A stretch of DNA of 64,000 nucleotides. Origin: Eublepharis macularius (lineage: Eukaryota; Chordata; Lepidosauria; Squamata; Eublepharidae). Made by a program: the position numbers and the translations under genes. The stretch covers positions 93,341,001-93,405,000 of the forward strand of contig NC_072800.1 in NCBI RefSeq assembly GCF_028583425.1, written 5' to 3'. Shown here one piece after another: positions 8,401 to 60,500 of the stretch. The notes beneath the pieces were generated by a model. The model saw only the letters and a list, made by a program, of their open reading frames with translations. It did no database searches and was not told the origin of the DNA. Each line of letters begins with the position of its first letter. Position 1 is the first letter of the stretch.

Positions 8401-11400
8401 CAGCAAGTGAACAGACTCACGTGTATTTCTCCCTGTTCACTTGTGCTCCACTTGATCACTACATGATCACCCGCTCCACTTGATCACCCACGTAGTGATC
8501 AAGTGGAGGGCAAGTGGAGGGCAAGTGAACAGGGAGGAATACACGTGAGGCTGTTCACTTGCCGTTCAAGTGTCATTCGTCACTTGTAGCTTGGCTCTCA
8601 GAGCCAAAACACACGAGAAGAAATACCTAGGTTCAGCACGTGATCTCTTACCTCAAGGTTTGCCGGGATCTGTAGGCGTCCTGGAAGCTTAAAGTTTAGC
8701 ATTTACAGAGCAGCAGGGAGGGAAATACAGACGCCTGCATTTCCCTTCCCCTTCCTGCTGCTCTGTAAATGCTAAACTTGTTCTCTTACCTCAAGGTTTG
8801 TTGGGAAGTGTAGGTGTCTTGGCAGCTTAAAGTTTAGCATTTACAGAGCAGCAGGAAGGGGAAGGGAAATACAGGCGCCTGTATTTCCCTTCCTGCTGCT
8901 CTGTAAATGCTAAACTTTAAGCTTCCAGGACGCCTACAGATCCCGACAAACCTTGAGGTAAGAGAACACGTGCTGAACCTAGGTATTTCTTAACGTGTGT
9001 TTTGGCTCTCAGTCTTTTCATTTTAGCTTCTAAGGAGAATTCAGGCTTGGCTATATATCTCTAGTTTGTCCAGGATATTATTTTATGCCACATAATGAAA
9101 ATAAAGAAAGCTACCATGTCTCTTTCATTGTATCATAAGTGGCACCTCACTGTTCCTCATATTCTTTAATAAAGTAAACCTACCCCCTGGTCTGCAGTTT
9201 CACAAAGATACTGGATAACAGGCGCCCCTTGCTCGGTGAAGATGGTTCCGTGACACTCCTTCACCACCTGCAAGAGAGGAGAATAAAATGGCTGCTCAGC
9301 TGGAGGACGGCCCCTCATGAAATAAGCAACCCAAGGAGAATGAAGAGCTGGAAGAAGCCAAAGAACCCGTAGTCCCGATTCCCTCTCCAAGGCACCGCTG
9401 TTGGGCCACTCCTGCACAGCGGATCTTATCTTTCTGCAAGCACTGTAGTGAGAATCTTAGAAACTGCATTTTATCTTTTAAATTTAAGATAGATTGGATA
9501 AGTGATAACACGTTTGCTTTCAAGTTCTGCTTCCGTGGACATATGCTAGTGATTTTTTTGGATCTCTGTGATTCTTTGGTATTTAATGCTGATCATCTGC
9601 AAGAGATTGATTATGAGAGAGGGCAGCCATCTCAATAGAGCCTGTGTTTTAGTGGCTCATGGGTTGCTTTACGAACAGACCATGAGATTCTTGGTTTCCA
9701 TGTTCATAGATCCAGAGGAGTTAGCCGTGTTAGTCTGTAGTAGCAAAATCAAAAAGAGTCCAGTAGCACCTTTAAGACTAACCAATTTTATTATAGCATA
9801 AGCTTTCGAGAATCAAGTTCTCTTCATCAGATGCCTGATCAAAACTGGGTGTTTTGAAGGTAATGCGTCCCCTCCACAGGAGGGATAACTCCACATCAAA
9901 GGAATGTTGACCCAATTTGGAATAAGCACTGTGAGAACCAGTTCTGACAGAATTGGAGCAGGCCGTTTCATGACCTTAGAGGAAAACTCCCGCGGGCACT
10001 CCTCAGCCCCTTCGTGGGCAGTGCCCGTGGGTCAGAGCTGTTCTGCTGTCCTTAATGGTGCTCAAACTATGCCACTTAAAGCAAATGTCTTAGCTTTGCA
10101 CCATGGCAGGGCAGTTTCTGGCCCAAAGCCCAGGACCAGGGGTTGGGCAGAAAGAGAGGGGACTCACCCCGTCGTCCTTAAAGTCGCATTCATCCAGATT
10201 CAGCTGCTTGGCGGGTGGGCACGTGGTCTCTTGCACTGTGAATTCCAGCTCCTGGAGTGACTGGCCCGAGGGGTCCTGGCAAGAGAGATGCCAAGAGATA
10301 CCAAGTGAACGCCCAGCGCTGCATTTTCCCAGTCATTGGCAGAGGTTAGCTCAAGGGCCCCCCAGTGCCTGATCTCCCACCCATTTTCAGAGCTAGATCT
10401 GAGCCACAGCTAAGCGGGGCAGGATTGAATTTCCCAGCCAAGTTTCAGCCCCCAAATTCTGCCGTTGCATTCAAGGCAGTTTAGGGTTTGAAATAATGGG
10501 ATGGTTTCCTTCCGCCACCACCAGCACTTTCCTCTGACACAAGGATCTTTCTTCGGACACAAGAGACTCTTGCCACATCAGGGCAACTGGGCACAGCAGT
10601 GGCCGCCAAGCAACTGGTCTCGATCTGGCCCTGCTTGACAGCCAACATACAACATACAACATACATACAACCAGGGTGGTGGGACTCAGTGGGTTGCCAG
10701 CAGAGGGGGCAACTCTTGGCGGGAGGTGGTGCCCCTGGTACCACATGTGCACACGCAAAGTGCGTGCACGCTCCCAGGACCACACAATGATGTCACTTTG
10801 GGTCAGCTGGAACATGGAGGGAGTTTTAAAAAGTTTAAATTGCCCTTGGTGAAAATGGTCACATGGCCGGTGGCCCCGCCCCCTGATCTCCAGACAGAGG
10901 GGAGTTGAGATTGCCCTCCGCGCTGATCTAAACTCCTCTCTGTCTGGAGATCAGGGGGCGGGGCCACCAGCCATGTGACCATTTTCAGGAGGTTCCAGAA
11001 CTCCGTTTCACTGCGTTCCAGCTGAAAAAAAGCCCTGAGAGCTGCCCTCCCATAGGCATACTTGGGCATAGAACGGAATATGTATCAATCCAGCCAGAAA
11101 ACAAAGGGGTCTCTTGAGCAGATGAGGAGTGCAATTCTGTTATTACTTTTGTAGTTGATCACAGGAATAGGCTGGAACGGCACGGAGGGCGATCTCAACT
11201 CCCCTCTGTCTGGAGATCAGGGGGCGGGGCCACCGGCCATGTGACCATTTTCAAGAGGTGCTGGAACTCCTTTCCATCCACCATGTTCCAGCTGAAAAAA
11301 AAGGCCTGCCTACAACCTCCAATATGACAACTGCCAGCTCTAGGGTTCCCAGGCTGAACCTGGAAAGGACATCATGCCACCCTAGGATTCGGGGATGAAC

Positions 11401-16443: not shown

Positions 16444-16532
16444 TAGATCCGATGAAGAGAACTTGATTCTCGAAATCTTATGCTACAATAAAATAAAATT
16501 GGTTAGTCTTAAAGGTGCTACTGGACTCTTCT
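16444..16532 (+). mobile_element. Truncated Penelope-like copy with 13-bp duplication
   Basis: CGTTTATACTTAA occurs at 16431-16443 and 16533-16545. The insert has GATGAAGAGAACTTGATTCT, CGAAA and the CTACTGGACTCTT end. Confidence 0.75.
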
Positions 16533-21054: not shown

Positions 21055-24000
21055 CTAGAGGGAGGGAGAAAAGAGGTCAGGATTTCCTTTGTTTGTTTGT
21101 TTGTAATTTCAATTTATAAACTGCCCTATCCCTGAGTACCCACAGCTCAGGGCAGAGAACAACAAAACGATAAAAAACATTCATAAATAACAAACAGTAT
21201 TGAATCAAATAAATAATAATCAGCAAAAATTATAAATAAACCATAATTTAAAACAGTCTCAGATGACGTAAATAGAATTGTTGCTGCCCAGAGCAATATA
21301 AGAAGCATGGCCTCAGGGCTATAGTCCACCTTTCTCAGGAGCAAAATAGTAAAGAGTCCAGTAGCATCTTAAGACTAACCAACTTTATTGTAGCATAAGC
21401 TTTTGAGAACCACAGCTCTCTTCGTCAGATGCATCTGACGAAGAGAGCTGTGATTCTCAAAAGCTTATGCTACAATAAAGTTGGTTAGTCTTAAAGGTAC
21501 TATTGGACTCTACTATTTTGCGACTACAGACTAACACGACTAATTCCTCTGGATCTTTCTCAGGAGGTGAAGCTGCCACATTCCCAAGTGGGCAGAGAAA
21601 TGAATGGAAGAACCACCATCTTCTGCATCTTCAACAGGGGTTACTCTAGGCAGAATATGTATTTATAGGGCTTTGTTTCAGCTGGGAGATGAGCGCTGTG
21701 GAGTGAGGGAGGTGTTTTTCACACAAGGATGGGCTTGCCAATAGAGCATAGCAGGTTTCCCTTCATTTTCTCTACTTCAGTGTCCTCCACCCACCCCCGA
21801 TTATTTTTCTGTGCTTTTTAAAAATCTGCAATTGATATAACATTACAGCTTCAAAGATTATAACAATCTGCCTATCAGAGTCTGAATTCTCAGCTTTCAT
21901 TTTTTTAAAAAGTTAGTCTGTAGAACCTTTCATTGCAGGGATATAAGGGGAAAGGCATCTCTCTGCAAGAAAAGGAGGGTAGAGACTTATTTTTTAAATG
22001 AATGCCGAGACTTCACAGGAAGTAGTTGATTATGACAATTCTATAACAATGTGCCAGTTTCAGATTTTTAAAAAAGCCCTATTGTGGCAGGGGAAAATGC
22101 CCGTAGTGAGGGGGGGGGGGCTGGGGCCAGGGACATGGCACTGGTATGGCTGGGACCAGGAAGATTTGGACTTTCCTGTCCATGTGGGTGGCACCCACCC
22201 TGCCTTTGTTGTGTTCTTTCCCAAACCATCACAGGAAAACAGATTGAAAGATGCGGAAAACCCATATTTAGGTGCATGGTAGCACCACTATGCTATGGGG
22301 AAAAGGGGGGGGGGCGTTCTCCAATAGCATCCAAGCTAGGGCCAGCAAGCCATGTGCAAGTGGTCAAAGGTGCTGGTTCCCATTTCCAACACTGCCTCCC
22401 TTTTCATCAGTGATGCTGGAGACTGACATTTTTCTAGAATGAAACACTGGATGAAACTAACCCCATCGCTGCCTGTTCCTGCCAGCTTTCCCTGCTGTCT
22501 TCCAGCCCTTCTACCTGAGCACCTTCTATCAGTGATACCAGCAGAGACTGACATTAGGAGGCGTAAGCCTGCTAACCAAGATAACTTATGGAGCCTCCAT
22601 GTTCCGGGGCAGTATATCTCTGAGTACCAGATTCTAAGAGAGATGGTGGAGGGCAATCTAAACTCCCCTCTGTCTGGAGATCAGGGGGCGGGGCCACCAG
22701 CCATGTGACCATTTTTAAGAGGTTCTGGAACTCTGTTCCACCATGTTCCAGCTGAAAAAAAGCCCTGGTCTCCACAAACTGCTTGGGAGTGAAACTAGGA
22801 GTTGGAGCTGTGCCACTTTCCAAGGTGATCACACGATACAGCTGCACACACCCTCTCTGCTTTTCTTTCTCCTTCCTGGACACCGTCTTTCACACCAGCT
22901 GTGCCACCTGCCTGCCAAATCCCAGCATGCTTCAAGTTCTGGAATTCACCTGGGGCAGTTTAAGAACAGACTTTTGCAGCACAACAGAGATCTATGAATA
23001 ATGCAAAGCCAGAGATCGATTTGGCTGGCTTCTTTTGGAGATTTTCCATCAGGGGCGGCCCTTTCCTCTGCAAAAAGTGTCTTGTGTTGGGGGGGGGGAT
23101 TCTCCTGCTGGCAAGTGGAATTGATCTGCACGCTCCAGCCCATTTTGTGGACTGAATTTCTGACCTCACACAGGGGGCTACCCCACCCCCCAAATACCCC
23201 TCTTCCCACGCTCCTTTGTGGGGTAAACTTACCCCCTGGCCTGCAGTTTCACAATTGAGTTGGAGGACGGGAGCCCCTTGCTCAGAAAAGATGGTTCCAA
23301 AACATTCCTTCACCACCTGTGAGAGAAGAAGAAGACAAAACAAGCGCTCTTTTATTTGAATTATGTGGCCTAAAGCTAACAAGAAATCCTCAAAATACTT
23401 GTTTGTGTTCAGGACAAGGGTTTAGAAGGGAAATATGGAAACATAGAGCTGGAAATAGATGCAGAGGAGTTAGCTGTGTTAGTTCGTGGTAGCAAAATCA
23501 AAACGAGTCCAGTAGCACCTTTAAGACTAACCAATTTTATTGTAGCATAAGCTTTCGAGAATCAAGTTCTCTTCGTCAGATGCATGGTACAGATGCATTG
23601 ACCAGTTTCTGTACCATGCATCTGACGAACAGAACTTGATTCTCGAAAGCTTATTGGTTAGTCTTAAAGGTGCTACTGGACTCTTTTTGATAGAGCTGGA
23701 AAGTACCCCAAGGGTCATCTAATCCAACCCCTGCAGAATGCAGGAAGTCAGAGCAACCTCCAGCCCTCATCCTCCCCCAGGGACCCCTGCTCTCTGCCCA
23801 GAGGAAGGCAAAAACCCTCCAGGCTCCCTGGCCAAGCTAGCCTGGAGGAAAATTCCTTTCTGACCCCAAAGTGGAAATTGGCCTTACCCTGGGCATATAG
23901 GCAAGGGCCATGATGAGAGCCTATAGTTGCCCTCCCTTGGTCAGTATTCTTTGGCCTCAGCTCCCCTGATGCCTATGAAGGCTTGAAGCTGGGGCCAGGG

Positions 24001-27000
24001 GTCAGCTGAGCTGCGAGACACGGCATGTAGTTGGAGGCCAGGCTTCGCCCATTCAGTTATTGCCATAAGTCCACTGACTAGTCCAGAGCTGGAGAAGAGA
24101 ACATGTTAGGGCTGCGATCTCCTGCTTTTGGGCCCTCCGCTCCCACCCAGCCTCACCTCTTGGGCTGGTGGGAGTGATACTGAGATGTATTTTATTGCTT
24201 TTATTTATTGTAATTGATTTATGATTGTTGTAACCCGCCCTGAGCCTGCTTGTGGGGAGGGAGGGCTTAAAATCGAATAAATCAATCACTCAATAGTGGG
24301 GAGTGGGGTGGAAATGACATGGGGCTACGTGCCTGGACGTGATGACAGGTCAGAAGATCGACTTTTTAGAGCGTCAGCCAACGATGTGGTGATGTCACAT
24401 CTGAGTCTTTGCCTTGACATGACACATCAGCCCAGCCCAAAGGCATTTCTGTCCTTTGACACACCCTGAGGCTCCCAGAAATACCAGGCCACCCCCTGGC
24501 ACCAGGCCACCCCCAGGCCACCTAGAACCTGTTGCCCAGCGCACAAAGGGAACAGAAAAGGACAAGAGGGCCACTGGCCTTAAGACTGGCAGGGGAAGAA
24601 CTTTGTTTCCCTTCTGCTACAGGTACTCAAAGCCTGGGCATGCCCAGAGGGGTGAGCCAAAGGACTCTTCTTCTTTGGCTGGATAAAGATCTGCTAGCAG
24701 GCAGAGAGGAAGATCTGCAGAAGGACTCTGGTCAACTCTCTCGCCTCTGGTCTTTAGAATCCTTACAGGTGATAATCCATCAGTTTCTCATATACTCTAT
24801 AGAATATTTCTTCCGTAGAAGAAATGGAAGTCCGAGAACATCCGCCCTCTGTAGTAACTCTAGGACTTCAATTGCTCCTGTACTCTATTGTATACCAGAG
24901 AATCTACCCTCCAAAGCGGTCATTTCCTCCAGATTTCTGTAGTCTGCAAATCCTTGTAATTTCAGAAGAACTCCAGGCCCCACCTTGAAGTTGGTAACCC
25001 TACACATTCACAGGAGATCAGGGTGCTCTCCATGCCCTGAATCTTTCCCCTAAATAGGAGAAACTCGCAGTGCTTCCTCTACTCTGCATGCACAGGGTCC
25101 CTGGTTCAATTCCTGGCATCTCCAGCTAAAAGAATTGGGCAGTAAGTGATGCAAAAGGCCTCTGCCTGAGACCCCAAAGAGCAGCTGCCCGACATAGCCT
25201 CAAGGCAAGACAACCGATGGCCCTAACAGGGAAGCGTGAGCCCCTGAGGAACGGAAGAGAGAGATGGAACTCACCCCGTCGTCCTTAAAGTCGCATTCGT
25301 CCAGATTCAGCTGCTTGGCGGGTGGGCACGTGGTCTCTTGCACTGTGAATTCCAGCTCCTGGAGTGACTGGCCCGAGGGGTCCTAACAAGAGAGATGCCA
25401 AGAGATACCGAATGAACACCCAGCTCTGTTTTTCCAGTCATTGGCCAGGGTAGGCTCAGGGTCATCACTGCACATTCTTTGCACCAAGGGATCACCATCA
25501 AATTTACGGCACCCTTTCAGAAGCGGATTTTTGCCAATTGCTAGCCTAAATTTGGGAAGGAAGCAGACATCCGCTGGGACTGCAAGTGCTAACTGGTAGA
25601 CGAATGAGCTCAGGGCCAAGCTAGAAGTGACAAGTTACACTTGGCCATTCAGGTGTAACTCGTCGTCACTTCTAGCTTGGCCCTCGGAGCCAAGCTACAA
25701 GAGACGCCTGACAGAGGTTGGACACTTGTCAGCTTCCCTCAAGTTCTGATGGGAAATGTAGGCGCCCTGGTTTTACAGCTTGGCTCTCCATTACAGCTGC
25801 AAGACCAGGATGCCTACATTTCCCATCAAAACTTGAGGGAAGCTGACAAGTGTCCAACCCGTGTCAGGCATCACTTGTAGCTTAGCTCTCACAGTCTCTA
25901 GTGGCTTATTCAGTAAGAACTAATTTGCAGCAATGAGAAGTTAACTTTTAATTCATGGAGTTGAGGATTAAGAGCAGATGTGTTGATCTTTTCAGGCCAG
26001 CTACTTTTGTTGCGCAAGGGCACCGGGTGTTGACAAAGATGTTCTTTCTAGCAAGCAGCTTTACTTCATCAAATTATACATTCTCTTGCACTCCCCTCAG
26101 CATCCCCACAAACACCGAGTGGTTTCGGTAATGCTATTAAATGGATTAAATTTCAAGGTTTGCAATCCGTTAAAAAAGCAGGTGATTAACCTATCACAAA
26201 CGTTTTGATTAATTAATAGAGCTGCCAGGGCTTTTTTTCTGGGAAAAGAGGTGGTGGAACTCAGTGGGTTGCCAGCGCAGGGGGCAACTCTTGGCAGGAG
26301 GTGGTGCCCCTGGTACCACATGTGCACACGCAAAGTGCGTGCACGCTCCCAGGACCACACAATGACGTCACTTTGGGTCAGCTGGAACATGGAGGGAGTT
26401 TTAAAAAGTTTAAACTGCCCTTGGTGAAAATGGTCACATGGCCGGTGGCCCCGCCCCCTGATCTCCAGACAGAGGGGAGTTGAGATTGCCCTCCGCGCTG
26501 ATCTAAACTCCCCTCTGTCTGGAGATCAGGGGGCAGGGCCACCAGCCATGTGACCATTTTCAGGAGGTTCCAGAACTCCGTTCCCCCGCGTTCCAGCTGA
26601 AAAAAAGCCCTGAGAGCTGCCCTCCCATAGGCATACTTGGGCATAGAACGGAATATGTATCAATCCAGCCAGAAAACAAAGGGGTCTCTTGAGCAGATGA
26701 GGAGTGCAATTCTGTTATTACTTTTGTAGTTGATCACAGGAATAGGCTGATCCATCTTACGTGGTCTACTTTTTTACTCACTGTGGGGATGTCTTTGCAG
26801 TTAAAAGGCAGCTTTAGACTGTGCACACTTGCTTTAGGATTCCAGAAGTATTGCAAATGCCCATCTGTTTTTGCAGGACTCCGAGCGATCAGCACTAGAA
26901 ACACGCCAGGTTCGAATTGTGCTTTGTGCCGTTTTATCTGAGTACTGATTGTCTTTTTCCATAGAAGGGCAACCCATTATTCCAAACAGCAACAATAACA

Positions 27001-41400: not shown

Positions 41401-44400
41401 CTTATAGGCCCGGCGAAAGGATAGCAAGTCCTGCCAGGCCCTGGTCTCATCAGACAGAGTGTTTCAGTCCCGGTTGAAGCCGGGACTGAAAAGGCCCTGG
41501 CTCTGGTCGACACTAGGCGGGCCTCCCTGGGACCAGGGATGACTAAAAGCTGTTTTTCACTGGAACGAAGCATCCTCTGGGGCTCATATAGGGAGAGGTG
41601 GTCCCGCAGAAACGCTGTTCCCAGTCCGCGTAGGGCTTTATAGGTTAAAACCAAAAGCTTGAATCTGATTCGGTACGCCACCGGTAACCAATGCAGCTGG
41701 TGCAATACTGGTGTTATTGCAGGATACTGCAGGATACTGACCCGTTCAGAAAGCCCAGACTGGTCATTCTTCTCCCCTGGCCCAGGCAGTCCTGTGTTTG
41801 CTGTTTCTGTGTGGAAGTTTGGCTCCAGTTTTGTCTCTAAAACGGAGCGGGGGTTTTTTTTGGAGCATCCCCAAGATGTCTTCCCCTAATCATGTACTTC
41901 CTTTGTTTTCCCCCACTCTGCTTTGGTCTTTCCCAAACCTGTTCAGGTATGATCTCTTAGAAAAGACTAACGTCAGTCTTTCCTAAGAGAGTAGTTCAGG
42001 AGTAGACTGAAGTAATTCAGTAATAATACTAATAATAATAAGTAATAAGTAATTCAGTAATACTAATACTGATAATAATGAGTAATACTACTAATAATAA
42101 GTAATAATACAGTAGTGAGCCACTTTGGTGTAGTGGTTAAGAGCATGGGACTTTAATCTGGAGAACCAGGTTTGATTCCCCGCTCCTCCGCTTGAAGCCA
42201 GCTGGGTGACCTTGGGTCAGTCACAGCTCTCTCAGAGCTCTCTCAACCCCACCCACCTCACAGGGTGATTGTTGTGGGGATAATAATGACATACTTTGTA
42301 AACCACTCTGAGTGAATGTTAAGTTGTCCTGAAGGGCAATATATAAATTGAATGTTATTATGTTAGGTTATTATTAGTAGACTGAAGGTAAGGGAAAAGG
42401 TAATTTTGGTATTGAAAGGAATTTTGACTTCTAAAACTTCAGAGCACCTTCTGTGAGTGAGAGACCAGGGGAGCGAGAAACAATGAATTGGGAGAGATGG
42501 TTGGATAGTGACAGGTGGCTGTTTGCTGTGGTGGTGATGGAGAGTGCCCTCAAGTCATAGCTGACATATAGCGAACCCTGGTGGGGTTTTCATAGCAAGA
42601 GACTAACAGAGGTGGTTTGTCATTGCCTGTCTCTGCAACCCTGGTCTTCATTGGAGGTCTCCTATCCAAGTACTAACCAAGACCAGCCCTGCTTATCTTC
42701 TGAGATCTCATGAGACCAGAGTCCCTTGGGCTATCCAGATCAGAGCGGCTATTTGCTGTATGGGCAGTAAATAGAATTCTGGATGGTGCCAGCTGGCCGG
42801 AGCCATCTGAAGCCCGTGCCTTGCCAGAGTCCTGAAGAATACATCACCACATCTATTGAAAGCACTTAGGGAAAAAAACTGAGGTGGGCGTCATGACAGA
42901 GTTTTCTAAGATTATAGATCATGTGGAGGTAGTGGGGGGAAAGAGCCCTTCCCCTTTCCCCTAATACTTGAAATGGCAGTGTGTGAGGGGAAGGTGGCCA
43001 GTGCAGCTGTTGGACAGTCGATTCAGGACAGATGAAAGGGAGTACACAACCCATTCATAACTTCTGGAACTCACTGCCACAGGATGTAGCGATGGCCACA
43101 GCCTTGGATAGCTTAAAAAGTGGATTAGACACATTCCTAGGCTGGTCCTTGGTGGGTAGATGGAACTTCTAGTGTACCTCTGAGAGCCACTTGCTGGGGG
43201 GGGGCAATGCCAGAGGGCATTTTGGCAGGGGGCCTTCTGGGGTATCGTGTTGGCCGCAGTGAGAAAGAGAGTGCTGGACTAGACGGAGCTTTCCTGCTGT
43301 TCTCACGCTCTTCTGTTCTGTCAGCTCTACAACTTCTTCCCCAGGATCATGGACTATTTGCCGGGCCCTCACCAAACCTTTTTCAAAAGTCTGTCAAGCA
43401 TTCAAGAGTTTATTTCCCAGAAGATTAAAGAGCACGAGAAGAGCCTGGACATCAACGCCCCCCGGGACTTCATAGACTCCTTCCTCATCAAAATGGAGCA
43501 GGTAAAACAGGGAGGAGCTCCAGTCAGTGAAGGCCTCGGACCCCTCCCTGACTAGGGGGTGGGCCAGGCCCCAGCGTGGCAAGCTGGCAGCAGGCCCAGG
43601 TCTTAAAAACAGACGGGCCGTCAGACTCAGTGAGCAGGGGATGGCATTGCCAACCTCCTGGGATTACAGCTGATCCCCAAATGACAAAGATCAATTCCCC
43701 TGAGAGCTAATCCTATAATTATAATAATAGCATTGATTTATATATCGCCCTTCAGGACCACTTAATGTCCACTCAGAATTGTTTACAAAGTGTGTTATTA
43801 TTCCCACAACAATCACCCTGTGAGGTGGGTGGGGCTGAGAGAGCTCTGAGAGAGCTGTGACTGACCCAAGGTCACCCAGCTGGCTTCAAGCGGAGGAGTG
43901 GGGAATCAAACCAGTTCTCCAGATTAGAGTCTTGCCACTCTTAACCACTACACAAATCTGCCTCTATTGGTTTGCATACCCCTACTATGCTCCCCGCACC
44001 CTTCCCAGGCTCCACCCTCAAATCTCCAGGAATCTTTCTGCCTGGTGTTGGCAAACCCTAGTACATGTGCATGATAAAACACGCAGCATAGCCTGGAGGG
44101 GAAAGCTAAATTCTCCTTGTAACCACTGCACTCCAGATGTTTTTGGAGGGGGGGTATTTGTTTGAGTCTGGTGCGGCAGGTTGGGGGCAAAAAAGTGTGC
44201 TTGGGAGGAAAGTTCACCCCACCTCCCCAAGTGGCACTTCTGATGCCTTTATCCCATTAAGATAGATTTGGCAAGTTTGGAAAGGATTCTACCATGGCTT
44301 CTTGGACCTCATCGGTGGGACTTAGTGAGAGGGGATGAGAGATGTCACTCCTTCTGGATCCAGAGGAGTTAGCCGTGTTAGTCTGTAGTAGCAAAATAGA

Positions 44401-47400
44401 AAAGAGTCCAACAGCACCTTTAAGACTAACCACCTTTATTGAGGCATAAGCTTTCGAGAACCACAGCTCTTTTTGTCAGATGATACAGTAAAGTTGGTTA
44501 GTCTTAAAGGTGCTACTGGACTCTTTTCTGTTTTACTCCTCCTGGGATAATGCCCACAGCACCTATAGGGTCAGAGCCAAACATTTTCAGACAGTTATGT
44601 CATTCTGAGCAGTTGTGTTGGGATTTTAGCAAGTGTCCTACATTCAGTCATGAAAGAGTTAAATTGTTATTCTGTTTGTTTAGTCAGATAGCTAGTTAGC
44701 ATAGGACCACTTAGGCCTCCAGTAAAAGTTCCCACCATAAAAAGGGGGGTCTTAATGAAGGCATCCAGGATTGTCTATTGGATGAGCCAGTTTATTGGGG
44801 GGCAATTAACTAGCAACATATATTAAGGTTTTATTAGCTCTTTGTTCACTTTCAGTTCTGTTTGTGTGTTCAATATTTAGTCTCTAAGTTTCTCTCTCTA
44901 AGCTCCTAGTCTAGCCATCAAGATGTAGTTAATTAGCTATTCTTTACTTTCTTACCAAACGTACCCACACCTCACAGGACATCCCACCTCACAGGGTGTT
45001 TTGTTGTGGGGATAATAATAACAGACTTTGTAAACTGCTCTGAGTGGGCATGAAGTTGTCCTGAAGGGCTGTATATAAATCGAATGTTGTTGTTGTTATT
45101 ATTCCCCTTGTTATGTGGTGAAGAATTTTTATAGAGCTAAAACCACAGAAGTCGTACTTATTTCCAATGTGCTAATATCAAACTCTGCTACCTTACTTAT
45201 CTATCTTTTTAATCTCTACCCGCCAACAAGTTGCCGTCACAGATTCTTCACTGGTGATGTGAACTCGGCTTCCCAATCTAGCTTTGCTCACCTGAAAAAT
45301 TGCAGAGCTGATCTTTTTTCACGGATTGTCCAGGATAGAAAAAAGAGTGCATGTTTTCAGAGCATCAATAGTGCCTGCAAACCGCATCTGGCACTCTTAA
45401 AATGTTGCCTCTGCTTTTGCCCTTCAGTTACAGCCCCCCCCCCCAAATCCCTGTAGCAGAACCAAGATCTTGTCGTAGGAAATGTAGGCGTCCTGGTTTT
45501 ACAGCTTGGCTCTCCATTACAGCTGCAAGACCAGGATGCCTACATTTCCCATCAGAACTTGAGGGAAGCTGACAAGTGCCCAATCTGTGACAGGCGTCAC
45601 TTGTAGCTCGGCTCTGAGACCTTGCGACTGAAGTGTCAGGCCAGCCCAGTTCACCACTCTCCCTGCTATTTCCAGGAGAAGCACAACTCCAAGACAGAGT
45701 TTACGCGAGAGAACTTGATGATGACGGGCTACGACATTTTCATTGCTGGGACAGAAACCACCAGTACCACCCTGAGATCCATACTCATGATTCTGGTTGA
45801 ACACCCAGCAGTGCAAGGTGAGCTAACAACTGAACCTGTTGCCTTTAGACAGGAGATGGTTGTTTTTAAAAGAGGGAGCTTTAGCCACTGCTGCCGGCCC
45901 ATCATTTGCCAACTTCTAGCAGAAGACATTCGTGCAGCTTACCAAACAAGCAGAGGGTTGGAGCTGAGCTTTGTGGTGGCTGCTTCCTCCCTCACAAGGA
46001 GCCTCCTACCTCCTGAGAAAAGAACTGTGATGGGCTAAACTGAGAGAGGTGGAGGTTTTCCTGAGAGTTTTATGACCGCTCTTGTATGGGGAACGGGGCC
46101 TTCTGCACCTACTCTCTCCATTCTACTGTCTCAGAGTGATGCAGTCAAAGCCATCCAATGGACCAGGAAGCCAAAATGACGGATCTTTGCCTTCCAGTGG
46201 CATTGATTGCAAAAACAGTTGTGATTTGCAAAGGTTCCTGCTCCTTGGATGAATTAGAGCCAAACTACAAGCGGCGCCTGACACAGGTTGGACACTTGTC
46301 AGCTTCCCTCAAGTGTTGATGGGAAATGTAGGCGTCCTGGTTTTAGAGCTTGGTCCTCCATTGCAGCTGCAAGACCAGGATGCCTACGTTTCCCATCAAA
46401 ACTTGAGGGAAGCTGACAAGTGTCCAACCTGAGTCAGGCGCCGCTTGTAGCTTGGCTCTTATAGAGTCCATGCACACTCAGAGCCAAACTACAAGTGACG
46501 TCTTACACAGGTTGGACACTAGTCGGCTTCCCTCAAGTTTTGATGGGAAATGTAGGCATCCTGGTCTTGCAGCTGTAATGGAGAGCCAAGCTGTAAAACC
46601 AGGGCGCCTACATTTCCCATCAAAACTTGAGGGAAGCTGACAAGTGTCCAACCTGTGTAAGGCGTCACTTGTAGTTTGGCTCAGACTGGGAAACTTTTTG
46701 ACGCCTGGGTTTATCCAGAACATGGTCAGTCATAATATATAAGCTTTTCCAAAACCACTTTGGCATAACCCAAATCTCCCCGGAAGCTGTTTGCCTGATA
46801 AAAATATAAGAAAGGAAGGAAGATTTTTCTTCTAACTGTCCCATTTACTCATCCATTCGCAGCAAAGATCCACAAGGAGATAGACCAAGTGATAGGCCGG
46901 GAACGAGCTCCCTCCATGAAGGACCGGACTGGGATGCCTTATACGGAAGCTGCTATCCACGAGGCCCAGAGATTCATGGATCTCATTCCCTTGGGATTCA
47001 CCCGGATGGTGAAACAGGACTTTGAAATCCGAGGCTTTACCATCCCCAAGGTAAGAATGTAAGAAGAGCCCTGCTGGGTCAGACCAAAGGCCCCATCCAG
47101 TCTAGCACTCTGTTCACACAGTGGCCGGCCAACTGCCTCTAAAAGCCCATGAGCAGGATGACTGCAACCACGTCCTCCCACCCGTGCTCCCCAGCAACAG
47201 AGATAAGGAGGCATACTGTCTCTGGTATTAGAGGGAATAGATATCCATCATGGCTAGTAGCTCCATACTCCATGAGTTCGTCCACTCCCCTTTTAAAGCC
47301 TTCCATGTTGGTGGCCATCACCACATCCTGTAGCAGTGAGTTCCACCAGTTAACTTAGTGCTGTGTGAAGAAGTGCTTCCTTTCCTCTGTCCTGAATCTC

Positions 47401-55175: not shown

Positions 55176-56107
55176 AAATAAGTCAGGAACAGGGCAAGCC
55201 TGTGTGGAGTTACTCCAGAGAGATTTGTACAGATCGAGCTTCGACAGGAAGCTGATCGAATAGCACAGTCGAATCATGAGATATTATTTCTAAAAGGCTG
55301 CAGAAGATTTTAATAGGTGGACTGAGCTCAGTGTTTTTACGACTGGGGGAATAACTGCCATCAAGACAAATCCGCTGTCCTCCCAAAATGTAGATTCTAT
55401 TCTTGAACAGCTCCACTAAGCCTATTAAACAAATCCTACTGCAGTGGCAAAACTGAATAATAAAATTTTATTGCACAAGGTAGGCGTGCTTATTTAATGG
55501 CTAAAACGATGCAGAAGCCACTTTGTACGGGAAGAGAAAGCCTTCCTAATATTAAAATATGCAACTGAGCAGCAGAACTGGAATTGGGAGGGGATCGGTA
55601 TGCAGAGTAAACCAGTAACTCTTGAAAGAGATGAACTCTGTACCATTACAGAGTGCAAATGCAGCAGCGCCAGAAAAAGGATTTGTCCACAATCAATTCC
55701 AGCATGTGTGCTGAGACAATATTCTGTGGTCTAGAACGCAACAGCTGATGCAGCAGAACCACTCAAAGTCTCATGTGTGAATCCTGCCTCTGCCACATAC
55801 TGACTCAGTGGCCTTAGGCAAGACTCTCCTTCTCAGCCCTCTGGCATGAAAACAATATTTTACAGGGTTGTTGTAAGGACTGAGATAATGGATCATACCC
55901 GTCTGCTCTGCTAGCAGTGCCTTTTTCTGCAGTTGCTGCTGGTGGCTGATTAGAGTGGCAGGATCCAACCCAATGTAGATGAAGCACATTGAAAACTGGA
56001 GAGGGGCATATAATGCTAATTACTGATGTTGGTTTGCAAGGTTATTCCAAACGTAGCTTATTCCAGACCTGTCTCTGCCAAATGCATTCTGCTATAGTTA
56101 GCTGATG

Positions 56108-56335
56108 CAGAGGAGTTAGCCGTGTTAGTCTGTAGTAGCAAAATCAAAAAGAGTCCAGTAGCACCTTTAAGACTAACCAATTTTATTTTATTGTAGCATA
56201 AGTTTTCGAGAATCAAGTTCTCTTCGTCAGTCTCTGTATCAGGCATCTGACGAAGAGAACTTGATTCTCGAAAGCTTATGCTACAATAAAATAAAATTGG
56301 TTAGTCTTAAAGGTGCTACTGGACTCTTTTTGATT
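56108..56335. mobile_element. Inverted Penelope-like copy with 13-bp duplication
   Basis: TAGTTAGCTGATG at 56095-56107 and 56336-56348. The hammerhead-like core at 56243-56281 has CTGACGA, a GAGAA/TTCTC stem and GAAAGCTTATGC. Confidence 0.8.
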
Positions 56336-56379
56336 TAGTTAGCTGATGAAATCTCTTTCCTGGCACATTTTTATTCCGC

Positions 56380-56790: not shown

Positions 56791-56889
56791 GGGCCCCTCC
56801 TCTATCTTAGCCTTGGTCTACATCTCACAGGGATTTTACTTTGAGGACAAATGGGGAAGGATCCTGCTGACTGTACCTGAGCTCCTTGA

Positions 56890-57091
56890 GAGCCAAGCTA
56901 CAAGTGACGCCTCACACAGGTTGGACACTTGGCAGCTTCCCTCAAGTTTTGATGGGAAATGTAGTCATCCTGGTCTTGCAGCTGTAATGGAGAGCCAAGC
57001 TGTAAAACTAGGATGCCTACATTTCCCATCAAAACTTGAGGGAAGCTGACAAATGTCCAACCTGTGTGAGGCGTCACTTGTAGCTTGGCTC
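56890..57091. mobile_element. Palindromic Harbinger-like MITE with TGA duplication
   Basis: 202 bp, TGA at 56887-56889 and 57092-57094, GAGCCAAGCTACAAGTGACG ends. Confidence 0.85.
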
Positions 57092-57268
57092 TGAGTCTCT
57101 TGCCATGAAAACCCCACTAGGGGCTGCAACAAGTCAACTAAGGCTTAAGGGAAGGATCTTTCAGTTTGGCAACAAGCTGGTCTTGGTGGTGGATTGATGT
57201 CCCCAAAACAACATGGCGCATGAATCTAAAACAAAGTTCTTGCAAATTACAATCACAATGGTACAAAT

Positions 57269-57563: not shown

Positions 57564-60500
57564 CTAGAGCAAGGAAAGGAGAGATAGGGGTCAAGAGCTA
57601 TAACAGAGCCAATGTCTGCACATTGTAGCAAGCCAGCATGACTTTGGCCGATTCCAGATGACTAACCTTAAGGCGCTTCATGCCGCCCTCTTCCGGATCG
57701 CGACGGGGAAAATGCGAAATATCGTGTTTCCTCGCACGAGTTTTGCGCGACGATGCGCAAAACTCACGCGAGGAAACACGATATTTCGCATTTTCCCCGT
57801 CGCGATCCAGAAGAGGGCGGCATGAAGCGCCTTAAGGTTAGTCATCTGGAATCGGCCATAGGCCTGCTGGGGGCAAAACTGCCAAGTGGCCAGAATTTCA
57901 CCCTCCTCTTCTCCAGTCTCTGGGACATAAAAATCCATTTGAAAACCACAACCTGATTCCCTTCCCTCACTCAACATAAACTCAAAGATCCAAAGAAGTT
58001 AGCCATGTTAGTCCATAGTTGCAAAATAGTACAGTCCAGTAGCACCTTTAAGACGAACCAACTTTATTTTAGCATAAGCTTTTGAGAACCACAGCTCTTT
58101 GTCCGATGACAAAGCCAGGTATGATTGTCAAAAGCTTATGCTACAATAAAGTTGCATCTGACCAAGAGATCTGTGGCTCTCGAAAGCCTATGCTACAATA
58201 AAGTTGTATCTGATGAAGAGAGCTGTGGTTCTCGAAAGCTTATGCTACAATAAAGTTGCATGTGACAAAGAGAGCTGTGGCTCTCGAAAGCCTATGCTAC
58301 AATAAAGTTGCATCTGACAAAGAGAGCTGTGGTTCTTGAAAGCTTATGCTACAATAAAGTTGGTTAGTCTTTAAGGTGCTACTGTACTCTTTACTGTTTT
58401 ACTATTTTATAAACTCAAAAGGTCTTAAACATAAAGTGTGAAAATTTTGGAAGACAAAAGCTGGTGATCCAATATCCATGTGTGTGTGTGGACTCCTCCA
58501 AATTGAAAAGGATGGATTCAGGAAGCCACTGCTTTTTGTTTCTACAAGATGGGCTGAAAAGAGTATACTCTTTGGGAAGAACCTTTCATATGCTCAGAGG
58601 CAGTCTTTCCTTACATTAGAAAAGAGGAAAAGTCCAGTACCACCTATAAGACTAATAAAATTTGTGGTAGGGTAGGAGCTTTCATGAGCCACAGCTCACA
58701 TCTTTGGAGAAGTTCTCTGAAAAAGTTCTCTGAAGAAATGAGCTGTGACTCACGAAAGCTCATACTCTACCACAATTGTTAGTCTTGTAGGTGCTACTGG
58801 AGTCTTGCTCTTTTCTACTGCTACAGACAGACTAACACGGCTACCCATCTTGATCTATTTCAATATACTGATTGTTTGGGGTTTTTTAAACCATCCATCA
58901 GATGTGTACTTTGCATGTGCTCAGGAGCACGGTGTCTTTGGGGAAGACACCAAAAGGGAACATCCTCAAACACATACTTTTGGAAATCAAAGCTGCAACC
59001 TGTCAGATCTCTGCATGCATCTGTACAGACTTTGGAATAACTTTTGGAAGTCCTCTTGGCTCTCCTATGAGATATCTGCAAAGACAGACTCAGAAGCCGG
59101 CCCTTGAGGGGATCTCCCCCCCTCCCCCCCTCACGCACACACATTTTGGCAGCACCCCAGCCCTAAATGCAAAAGAAGAAACAGAGTTGGCCAAAAAAAT
59201 ACCTCCTGCTCCATATCTTCACACTGGACGATGATCAGTGGTGGATCCTGCTCAGCAGAATAGAAGCCAGAGCAGTCCCTGTCAACCTGCCCAAGCAAAG
59301 GAGGAGAGAAATCAGCCCCAAGCAAGCTACGAGTTCAGGAGCTGCTCAACCCCATGCACTGCACACACTCATCCTTGCACCAGGGTGAGCAGGACAAGCC
59401 AGTACGGTCCAGCCCAGGGCATTTCCAGCCCGCATGAATTCTGCCCCCCCACCCCCTCAGTATACTCCAAATTTCTCCCAGAAAAAAGGCCCTTTTGACT
59501 CAGTATCTTTCCTGCATATCCCCTCAGGGATGGGGGGAGGGGGGGACTCAATAGCCCAGCATAGCCCCAAGCCCACTGCAAAATGGACCCTCTGTTGAAG
59601 ACTTGGAGGGGATCAGCACTCCCTGCTTAAATGGCACTCGGCATCCTCTAGAGTTGCCACATCTGGGTTGGGAAATTCCTGGAGGTTTGGGGTGTGAGCC
59701 TGGGGAAAGTGGCATTTGGGGCGGGAAGAAGCTCAGCAGGGTACAGCGCCAGAAAGCCCACCCTCCAGAGCAGCCATTTTCTCCAGGGGGAAACGATCTC
59801 TGTAATTTTGGGAGGTCTCCAGGCCCCTCGTGGAGGTTGGCAAGCCTAGCACCATCAAATCCCATTACGTCTGCAACACATCAGCTGTTCTATTTTGGGG
59901 CTTTGGCTGCAGGCTTGGGTCTTCGCTGGCAGGCCCAAAAAAGCCCCGCCCTCAATTTGTTTTTTGGACTGAACCAATTTCCGGTCTGATGAAGAGTTCT
60001 GCAGAGCTCCGAAGCCTGCACCCTCTTTGGTGATATTTGAGTTGGTCCTAATAAAAAGGTATGAAAAATCTTTTGCTTTGAGGATTTTTCTGAAATGCGG
60101 CACCGTTACCTTCGCTCTTTGTTTAGTTCAGGAATACACAAATGAGTGTTAGGAAGACAGCAGGCAAACCCCACCCCGCCGTATCAGGCAGAGCATCACC
60201 TGCGTTCTTACTGCAGGCCTGCCGTTCAGGCATGGAAGCTGTGCAGTAAGAACTGGGCCCTCTTCTCTCCCCTACGAAGGATCTCCTTACCCCATCGTCT
60301 TTGTAGTCACACTGGCTCACGTCCAGGTTCTCGGCTGTGGAGCAAACCGTCTCTTTGATGGAGAATTTCAGAGATTGGATGGTTTTGGCAGAAGGGTCCT
60401 GCAAAGACATTTGGCCCAGAGATCAGTCATGTCTGCAGTGGGGGCCTGAAGGCAGCTGCCCTGCCTTGCATGAGCTGGACTCCTGTCTGGAGAAGCTGGG

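Follow-up and report, generated by a model that had tools for sequence, protein, structure and literature searches.

How did a run of hammerhead-like units, spaced at exactly 52 bp, arise in the genome of Eublepharis macularius, and did the ribozyme build it? The window, the whole 64,000-nt stretch analysed here, contained a tandem array at positions 58131–58362 with a period of 52 bp, 4.5 copies, 90% matches, and no indels (Tandem Repeats Finder). The ungapped spacing of its units was 52, 52, and 52, and the 52-bp tandem array of the original prediction was thus borne out. In the phase GCATC, the units started at 58102 (chimeric), 58154, 58206, 58258, and 58310. Five units had been claimed; four of them were full, whereas the supposed fifth was a chimera without the core. 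The array and the insertion that holds it were composed of the following features.

57976–57986 (+), left target-site duplication ATAAACTCAAA, 11 bp, with an identical copy at 58409–58419
57987–58101 (−), inverted (left) arm, with the long tail, a AATAAAGTT spacer, and a decayed hammerhead unit (inverted repeat I1)
58102–58153 (+), unit 0, chimeric where it meets the inverted arm; no hammerhead core; AAAAGCTTATGCTACAATAAAGTT kept; B-like end
58154–58205 (+), unit 1, type A, core lost (CTGACCA), GAAAGCCT (unit table)
58206–58257 (+), unit 2, type B, the only unit of the array in which the minimal hammerhead is intact, motif at 58206–58245 (descriptor match and unit table)
58258–58309 (+), unit 3, type A, core lost (GTGACAA), GAAAGCCT (unit table)
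58310–58361 (+), unit 4, type B, core lost (CTGACAA), cut site GAAAGCTTATGC kept (unit table)
58362–58408 (+), right (short) tail of the sense arm, from reading of the sequence
58409–58419 (+), right target-site duplication ATAAACTCAAA, by its match to the left copy

The two arms were arranged head to head and were related by inverted repeat I1 (58033–58098 and 58323–58388, 66 nt, 91% complementary), and the array lay innermost in the right arm. One pair of ATAAACTCAAA flanked the array together with both arms, which indicates a single insertion of 422 bp (57987–58408). The Penelope-like repeat of the original prediction was real as an array, but the larger palindromic insertion around it had been left undelimited.

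The units of the array alternated in the order BABAB. The B units (2 and 4) carried GGTTC and GAAAGCTT, and the A units (1 and 3) carried GGCTC and GAAAGCCT. At the cut-site segment, units 1 and 3 showed GAAAGCCTATGC rather than GAAAGCTT, and CCU replaced CUU, hence the triplet was not NUH. Of the four full units, only unit 2 held the whole order GCAT-CTGAYGA-stem-GAAAGCTT-ATGC, which had been ascribed to all units, and there GTAT took the place of GCAT. In hammerhead numbering, G8 was lost in three of the four full units, and C3 was additionally lost in unit 3. In the family core CTGACGA, G8 lies within a CpG, as does G12 in CTCGAAA. The CTGACAA and CTTGAAA of unit 4 and position 8 of the GTGACAA of unit 3 fit CpG decay, and the CTGACCA of unit 1 does not. 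With G8 lost in three of four full units and CCU in units 1 and 3, regular cleavage at intervals of 52 nt, as had been anticipated, would not be expected today. At most, the core of unit 2 could presently cut the site of unit 2 or of unit 4. The window array is a fossil and mostly dead, and both its ribozyme and its element are of known kinds.

The identity of the motif was examined with a descriptor, devised after the motif had been seen, of CTGANGA, zero or one extra base, a stem II of at least 4 bp, GAAA, NUH, and a 4-bp stem I. It matched the window at four places, all of them in Penelope ends and all with the extra A; these gave nine rows because alternative stems were listed separately. 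Nine rows were also the whole yield of 200 simulated windows, and the motif is therefore more than chance. A looser pattern search of the window gave 15 matches against 17.6 expected and had no power. A complete core with an NUH site was found in unit 2 and in three other window copies, and was absent from units 1, 3, and 4. The three other copies were as follows.

56243–56281 (+), intact minimal hammerhead in the palindromic insertion 56117–56329, stem II GAGAA/TTCTC (descriptor)
23545–23583 (−), intact minimal hammerhead in the palindromic insertion 23471–23685 (descriptor)
9796–9834 (−), intact minimal hammerhead in a one-armed insertion (descriptor)

In an alignment of 50 copies, with 49 distinct rows and a one-base offset in one row, stems I and II were paired in 93.3% of pair cells, compared with 17.2–49.1% in slid versions. 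Double changes were found between subfamilies in the same alignment, from C-G to U-A in stem I (three rows) and from A-U to U-A in stem II (two rows). Five cells were changed on both sides, against 1.2 in shuffles, where 3 of 500 reached five. The number of pairs with double changes was not above the shuffles (2 versus 1.1; 142 of 500), and one slid version had three; the case for a hammerhead is therefore carried by the paired fraction, the descriptor test, and the known family.

When monomers were folded, stems I and II were the best structure for unit 2 of the window, for a unit of another locus (L009), and for the window copy at 56243, and were not the best structure for unit 1 of the window. 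The dimer fold with AGCU/AGCU and an exchanged stem I was possible, with an energy of −17.5 kcal/mol, but its stability was below that of the extended duplex (−28.2) and of two monomers (2 × −10.4). The geometry agreed with the earlier proposal of a dimer type with AGCU as stem III and a CUU triplet. A motif of this kind would be expected to cut chiefly as a dimer, with the AGCU of two units paired as stem III and the GCAT/ATGC strands of stem I swapped.

The Rfam hammerhead models, a search that the original prediction had asked for, did not match the array at gathering scores or at E up to 10. They were equally without a match on intact copies (window 56080–56370 and loci L049, L050, and L009, the loci at E up to 10), so the Rfam check does not discriminate. 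Matches to microRNA families (E down to 2e-18) were under the gathering scores and were rejected as a product of the palindromic arms.

It might be argued that there is no ribozyme and that the repeat, or its palindromic arms, resemble a hammerhead by chance. The unmatched Rfam models (E up to 10), the missing core in most window array units, and the number of double-change pairs, not above shuffles, would be in keeping with this. However, the descriptor matches exceeded the simulation, the paired fraction was far above that of the slid controls, and hammerheads have been published at the same place in Penelope elements, one of which was cut in vitro and needed the Penelope protein (PMC11167929). 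This explanation is considered highly improbable.

The extra A after CTGAYGA, which had been remarked upon as a departure from the canonical motif, was seen in every descriptor match. It recurs across the family, as judged from the alignment, the descriptor search of the window, and the sequences read. An extra A is also found in the plus-strand hammerhead of Chrysanthemum chlorotic mottle viroid, as given in the available part of PMC3705267, which provides a precedent. Minimal type I hammerheads in the pseudo-LTRs (pLTRs) of Penelope-like elements (PLEs) were described by Cervera and de la Pena (2014) and Lunse et al. (2017), both as cited in the accessible portion of PMC7761336. On that account, these share with the copies here the order CUGANGA, stem II, GAAA, NUH, and a short stem I, with hardly any stem III; they are tandem, are thought to be cut as dimers, and lie in the pLTR of GIY-YIG Penelope elements. 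Tandem minimal Penelope hammerheads are thus already published, to the extent of that citing paper, and the copies here may differ from those by the extra A, by arrays of up to 28 units, and by four periods.

The tie to a Penelope element was provided by one locus (L076, C1:57167050–57170700), in which a frame-broken ORF lay between two direct copies of the hammerhead and tail, with an inverted copy adjacent. One piece of the ORF matched GIY-YIG (PF01541) with 24.8 bits (cut-off 22.6, E 2.8e-5), another matched RVT_1 with 21.8 bits, below the cut-off of 29.6 (E 1.7e-4), and the remaining two pieces had no match. This locus belonged to the subfamily with stem II GAGAA/TTCTC, and the subfamily of the array was tied to it through the shared tail and motif only. 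From these similarities, the array insertion is taken as a Penelope-like (Penelope/Poseidon-type) end, its pLTR being linked to an RT/GIY-YIG element. As stems I and II held as pairs and the pLTR segment flanked such an ORF, the minimal Penelope-associated hammerhead that had been claimed stood, and the unit can be described as a probable descendant of a minimal type I hammerhead, stem-III-less, with an extra A, and located in the pLTR.

Seventeen other GIY-YIG loci (L059–L075) had no tail like that of the array with up to nine substitutions allowed. By eye, most of these ended like another Penelope type, and L061 looked like a cellular gene. Fourteen of their 17 flanks gave no match to the Rfam hammerhead models (E up to 1). 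The 3′ flanks of the ORFs at L067, L074, and similar loci seemed by eye to belong to the other Penelope type and to hold a motif that resembles a hammerhead and has a real stem III, for example CTGATGAAG...CACGAAACGGGT...ACCCGTAGC at L074; Rfam gave no match to it at the same threshold. In the window itself, 10 of the 103 frames of at least 100 amino acids were searched and had no Pfam match.

PLEs have direct and inverted pLTR copies, a target-site duplication of 8–10 bp, and a tail on one inverted pLTR, according to the available part of PMC3846280. The array insertion likewise had inverted pLTRs, a short target-site duplication (11 bp), and a one-sided tail. When the insertion and its neighbour were compared with the window by blast, related ends were found at 9722, 16447, 21341, 23471, 44370, 52785, 53803, 56117, and 58614. 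Six of these (21341, 23471, 44370, 53803, 56117, and 58614) were palindromic, and five had flanking direct repeats of ~10–12 bp by eye, exact at 16447, 21341, 23471, and 56117 and imperfect at 44370. One of the palindromic insertions belonged to another subfamily.

58614–58833 (strand not assigned), second palindromic insertion, with CTGAAGA, a stem II near GTGAGC/GCTCAC, and GCTCATAC (inverted repeats I2 and I4)

The tails were scanned at 31 loci (the window array, L009–L028, and L049–L058), and both were recognised in 17, which together with the six palindromic window copies gave 23 two-armed insertions. The long tail (...ACTAACACGGCTAACTCCTCTGGATC) was on one arm and the short tail (...GGACTCTTT...) on the other in 22 of the 23, the exception being L057, which was without the long tail. 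Two long tails on one insertion were found in none of the 23 (for example, window 21341–21542, 23471–23685, and 56117–56329). The available part of PMC3846280 already reports for PLEs that one pLTR of the inverted pair bears a tail.

One of the closest systems for comparison was Poseidon PAc of the green anole, which also has a hammerhead in the pLTR, two RT starts with an optional tail, and a target of which both strands are cut and extended (PMC11167929). The tail was explained there by two internal RT start sites. The PAc RT starts are 111–118 nt into the ORF and the cut site is at +26, that is, the starts are 85–92 nt past the cut (PMC11167929), and the long tail here ended ~91 nt past the cut by hand count. 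The PAc ORF starts at stem II (PMC11167929), whereas the corresponding frame here closed after 16 codons by eye. The PAc RNA was cut only when protein was added, and the main text describes no 52-bp array (PMC11167929). The rule of one long and one short tail may tell how two RT start sites are divided between the strands.

Across the source genome (2.24 Gb; reversed-pattern controls gave 0 each), exact strings of stem II with GAAAGC numbered 12,506, those of the core with the CTTATG site, a pattern that itself includes the extra A, numbered 5,179, and joints of unit and tail numbered 20,864. Exact array joints were of the 52-bp type in 2,760 cases and of the 41-bp type in 1,448. In 20 random 10-kb blocks, 13 tail clusters were found. 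Thirty loci were then taken from the match lists, a non-random sample in which many were picked for multiple matches; they contained arrays with periods of 41, 47, 52, and 56 bp and some single-unit insertions, and the longest array had 28 units (L049). Units typically started at (G/A)CATC in all periods while the opposite boundary was variable, and the two arms of one locus (L011) differed in period, 56 bp against 41 bp. The unit had no match in viral contigs, and four strings of 20–24 letters from the unit and tail had none in the literature searched. Among the matches listed for Penelope and hammerheads, the available text of the papers included no report of such arrays in reptiles. The arrays of this one genome are unusual in their scale and in how varied they are.

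The recurrence of the same odd joints (41 and 52 bp) at many loci points to joints inherited through RNA and argues against fresh local slippage each time. One possible but unlikely explanation is that retrotransposition makes the arrays: the telomerase-related Penelope RT, on arriving at a 5′ template end that is fixed (GCATCUGA...), would jump back repeatedly and copy the hammerhead segment anew, and the array would be inserted ready-made. The typical (G/A)CATC start at periods of 41, 47, 52, and 56 with a varying second boundary, the different periods of the two arms of L011, and the recurrence of identical joints would be consistent with this mechanism. The head-to-head centres also agreed in part, being 22, 34, or 46 nt in 17 of 31 distinct centres (10, 5, and 2, respectively) in steps of 12 nt, but the other 14 were off this series. 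The centres were of 22 nt at L006, L016, L049, and L053, of 34 nt at L020–L022, L052, and L054, and of 46 nt at L019 and L051, and the 12-nt steps corresponded to GCATCTGACGAT-like repeats. Later turnover is suggested instead by singletons that were lower in units than in tails and by near-identical units that lay apart with different ones between them (L051 and L053). Furthermore, the central part of C1 had no array joint among the matches listed, whereas other pLTR copies were present there. The more specific proposal, that the Penelope RT itself builds arrays by re-copying the 5′ end of its RNA, with a locus-specific period and on either arm, and so yields multi-hammerhead, dimer-competent transcripts, is regarded as doubtful.

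Turnover was examined by the mean non-CpG difference between units as a function of lag, with few comparisons per locus. A 3-unit pattern was suggested at L051 (3.8% at lag 3 versus 6.1% at lag 1), a 4-unit pattern at L053 (4.5% at lag 4 versus 8.3% at lag 1), and a 2-unit pattern in the second run of L058 (1.0% at lag 2 versus 5.1% at lag 1). A 2-unit pattern was also suggested for the window array (9.9% versus 13.6%, with the chimeric unit counted). In the same test, L049, L050, L052, and others had little or no multi-unit pattern. A two-template 'ping-pong' source of the BABAB order was set aside because of the 3- and 4-unit patterns of other arrays. Non-CpG singletons amounted to 69 of 4,449 (1.6%) in 17 runs of at least four units, the last and chimeric units being dropped. 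Mismatches in 21 arm tails amounted to 40 of 651 (6.1%), or 29 of 589 (4.9%) when two seemingly misplaced or truncated tails, which hold 11 of the 40, are left out. Although the two rates were measured differently, the rarer singletons of the units are as expected with turnover of units after insertion, and unequal exchange after insertion would fit these sequences.

The 2-, 3-, and 4-unit patterns, specific to some loci, could also be read as a trace of RNA processing. Multimers cut by the hammerhead (k × 52 nt) would be circularised and reverse transcribed by rolling circle to give k-unit patterns, in a retrozyme-like manner; the cuttable tandem units present in 52- and 47-bp arrays would suit this, and metazoan retrozymes with circular RNAs have been published (available part of PMC7229834). 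If the RNA were processed in this way, reads would begin at AUGCUACAAU or be joined as circles of k × 52 nt. However, 41-bp arrays were numerous despite a GCTG site, that is, CUG and not NUH, and hammerhead mutants of the anole PLE were unchanged in insertion, with no reads bounded by the cut site (PMC11167929). This route is judged very unlikely. The array was also considered as a retrozyme proper and rejected, since retrozymes have repeats of 150–450 bp, canonical type I hammerheads, and circRNA according to the available part of PMC7229834, and the array has a 52-bp unit and a stem-III-less motif. The original prediction had tied the repeat to the ribozyme, but the abundance of 41-bp arrays with a CUG site indicates that the ribozyme is not needed for arrays.

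The distribution along chromosomes was compared within 32 Mb of the ends, a limit set after the data had been seen. The 52-bp joints were within this distance at 15 of 15 loci on C1 and 30 of 31 on C2, as were the 41-bp joints at all 72 C1 loci among the matches listed. The distance of the window from the end of C11 is 2.5 Mb. A control joint taken from the pLTR immediately before the first unit, with subfamilies mixed, showed no strong distal bias, being in the first 32 Mb of C1 at 22 of 91 loci, with 16.7 expected (among the matches listed, 174 Mb). An exact 68-mer control of the same subfamily, some loci of which may be the last units of arrays, was distal at 40 of 48 loci on C1 and C2, and the distal excess of array joints over it was modest (Fisher P 0.03 and 0.014). 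In a TE-derived subtelomeric minisatellite, distal copies alone would be expanded in tandem and single copies would be widespread. The array joints were distal, but well-preserved copies of the same subfamily, whether or not in arrays, were mostly distal too, and location therefore supports a recombination reading only weakly.

The preferred reading, to which we give a probability of roughly 0.6, is that the array is a small, mostly decayed minisatellite within a single Penelope-like insertion, grown from the hammerhead segment and not built by the ribozyme. A segment of the pLTR would have been duplicated in tandem first, during reverse transcription or through DNA slippage. Unequal exchange would then have altered the copy number and left the BABAB order here and, at some of the loci elsewhere, patterns of 2 to 4 units. 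The ribozyme would serve, or would have served, the RNA of the parent element, and the array would not be its product. Comparable growth is described in the available parts of two reports on satellites. In the tail of a frog SINE/tRNA-V, a 52-bp piece was expanded only in subtelomeric copies and was attributed to recombination (PMC10794172), and squamate SINE-derived satellites have distal tandem expansion with di- and trimeric patterns like the arrays here (PMC10702118). Those units are SINE-derived and, in the available text, are given with no mention of a ribozyme (PMC10794172 and PMC10702118), whereas the unit here is a Penelope hammerhead.

Several other features of the window were observed. 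A segment at 59986–60016 (CTGATGAAGAGTTCTGCAGAGCTCCGAAGCCTGCACC) may be the end of a further family in which the order resembles that of a hammerhead, and a long near-perfect inverted repeat just upstream of the array insertion (57664–57846) had the look of a small transposon. A 5S rRNA-like sequence at 2261–2377 (−), with 54 bits, is possibly a 5S-derived SINE. The window also contained a pair of 500-bp repeats (10675–11174 and 26250–26749, 97.8% identical) and a ~205-bp repeat family with direct and inverted copies (25683, 46256–46682, and 56887–57096).

The locus joins the Penelope hammerheads with retroelement-derived minisatellites. The genome holds thousands of natural variants, which differ in whether the core is intact or dead and the site cuttable or not, in the number of units (1 to 28), and in which of the four periods they have. 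These variants could allow comparative and simple in vitro tests of the role of the Penelope hammerhead and of the origin of its tandem copies.
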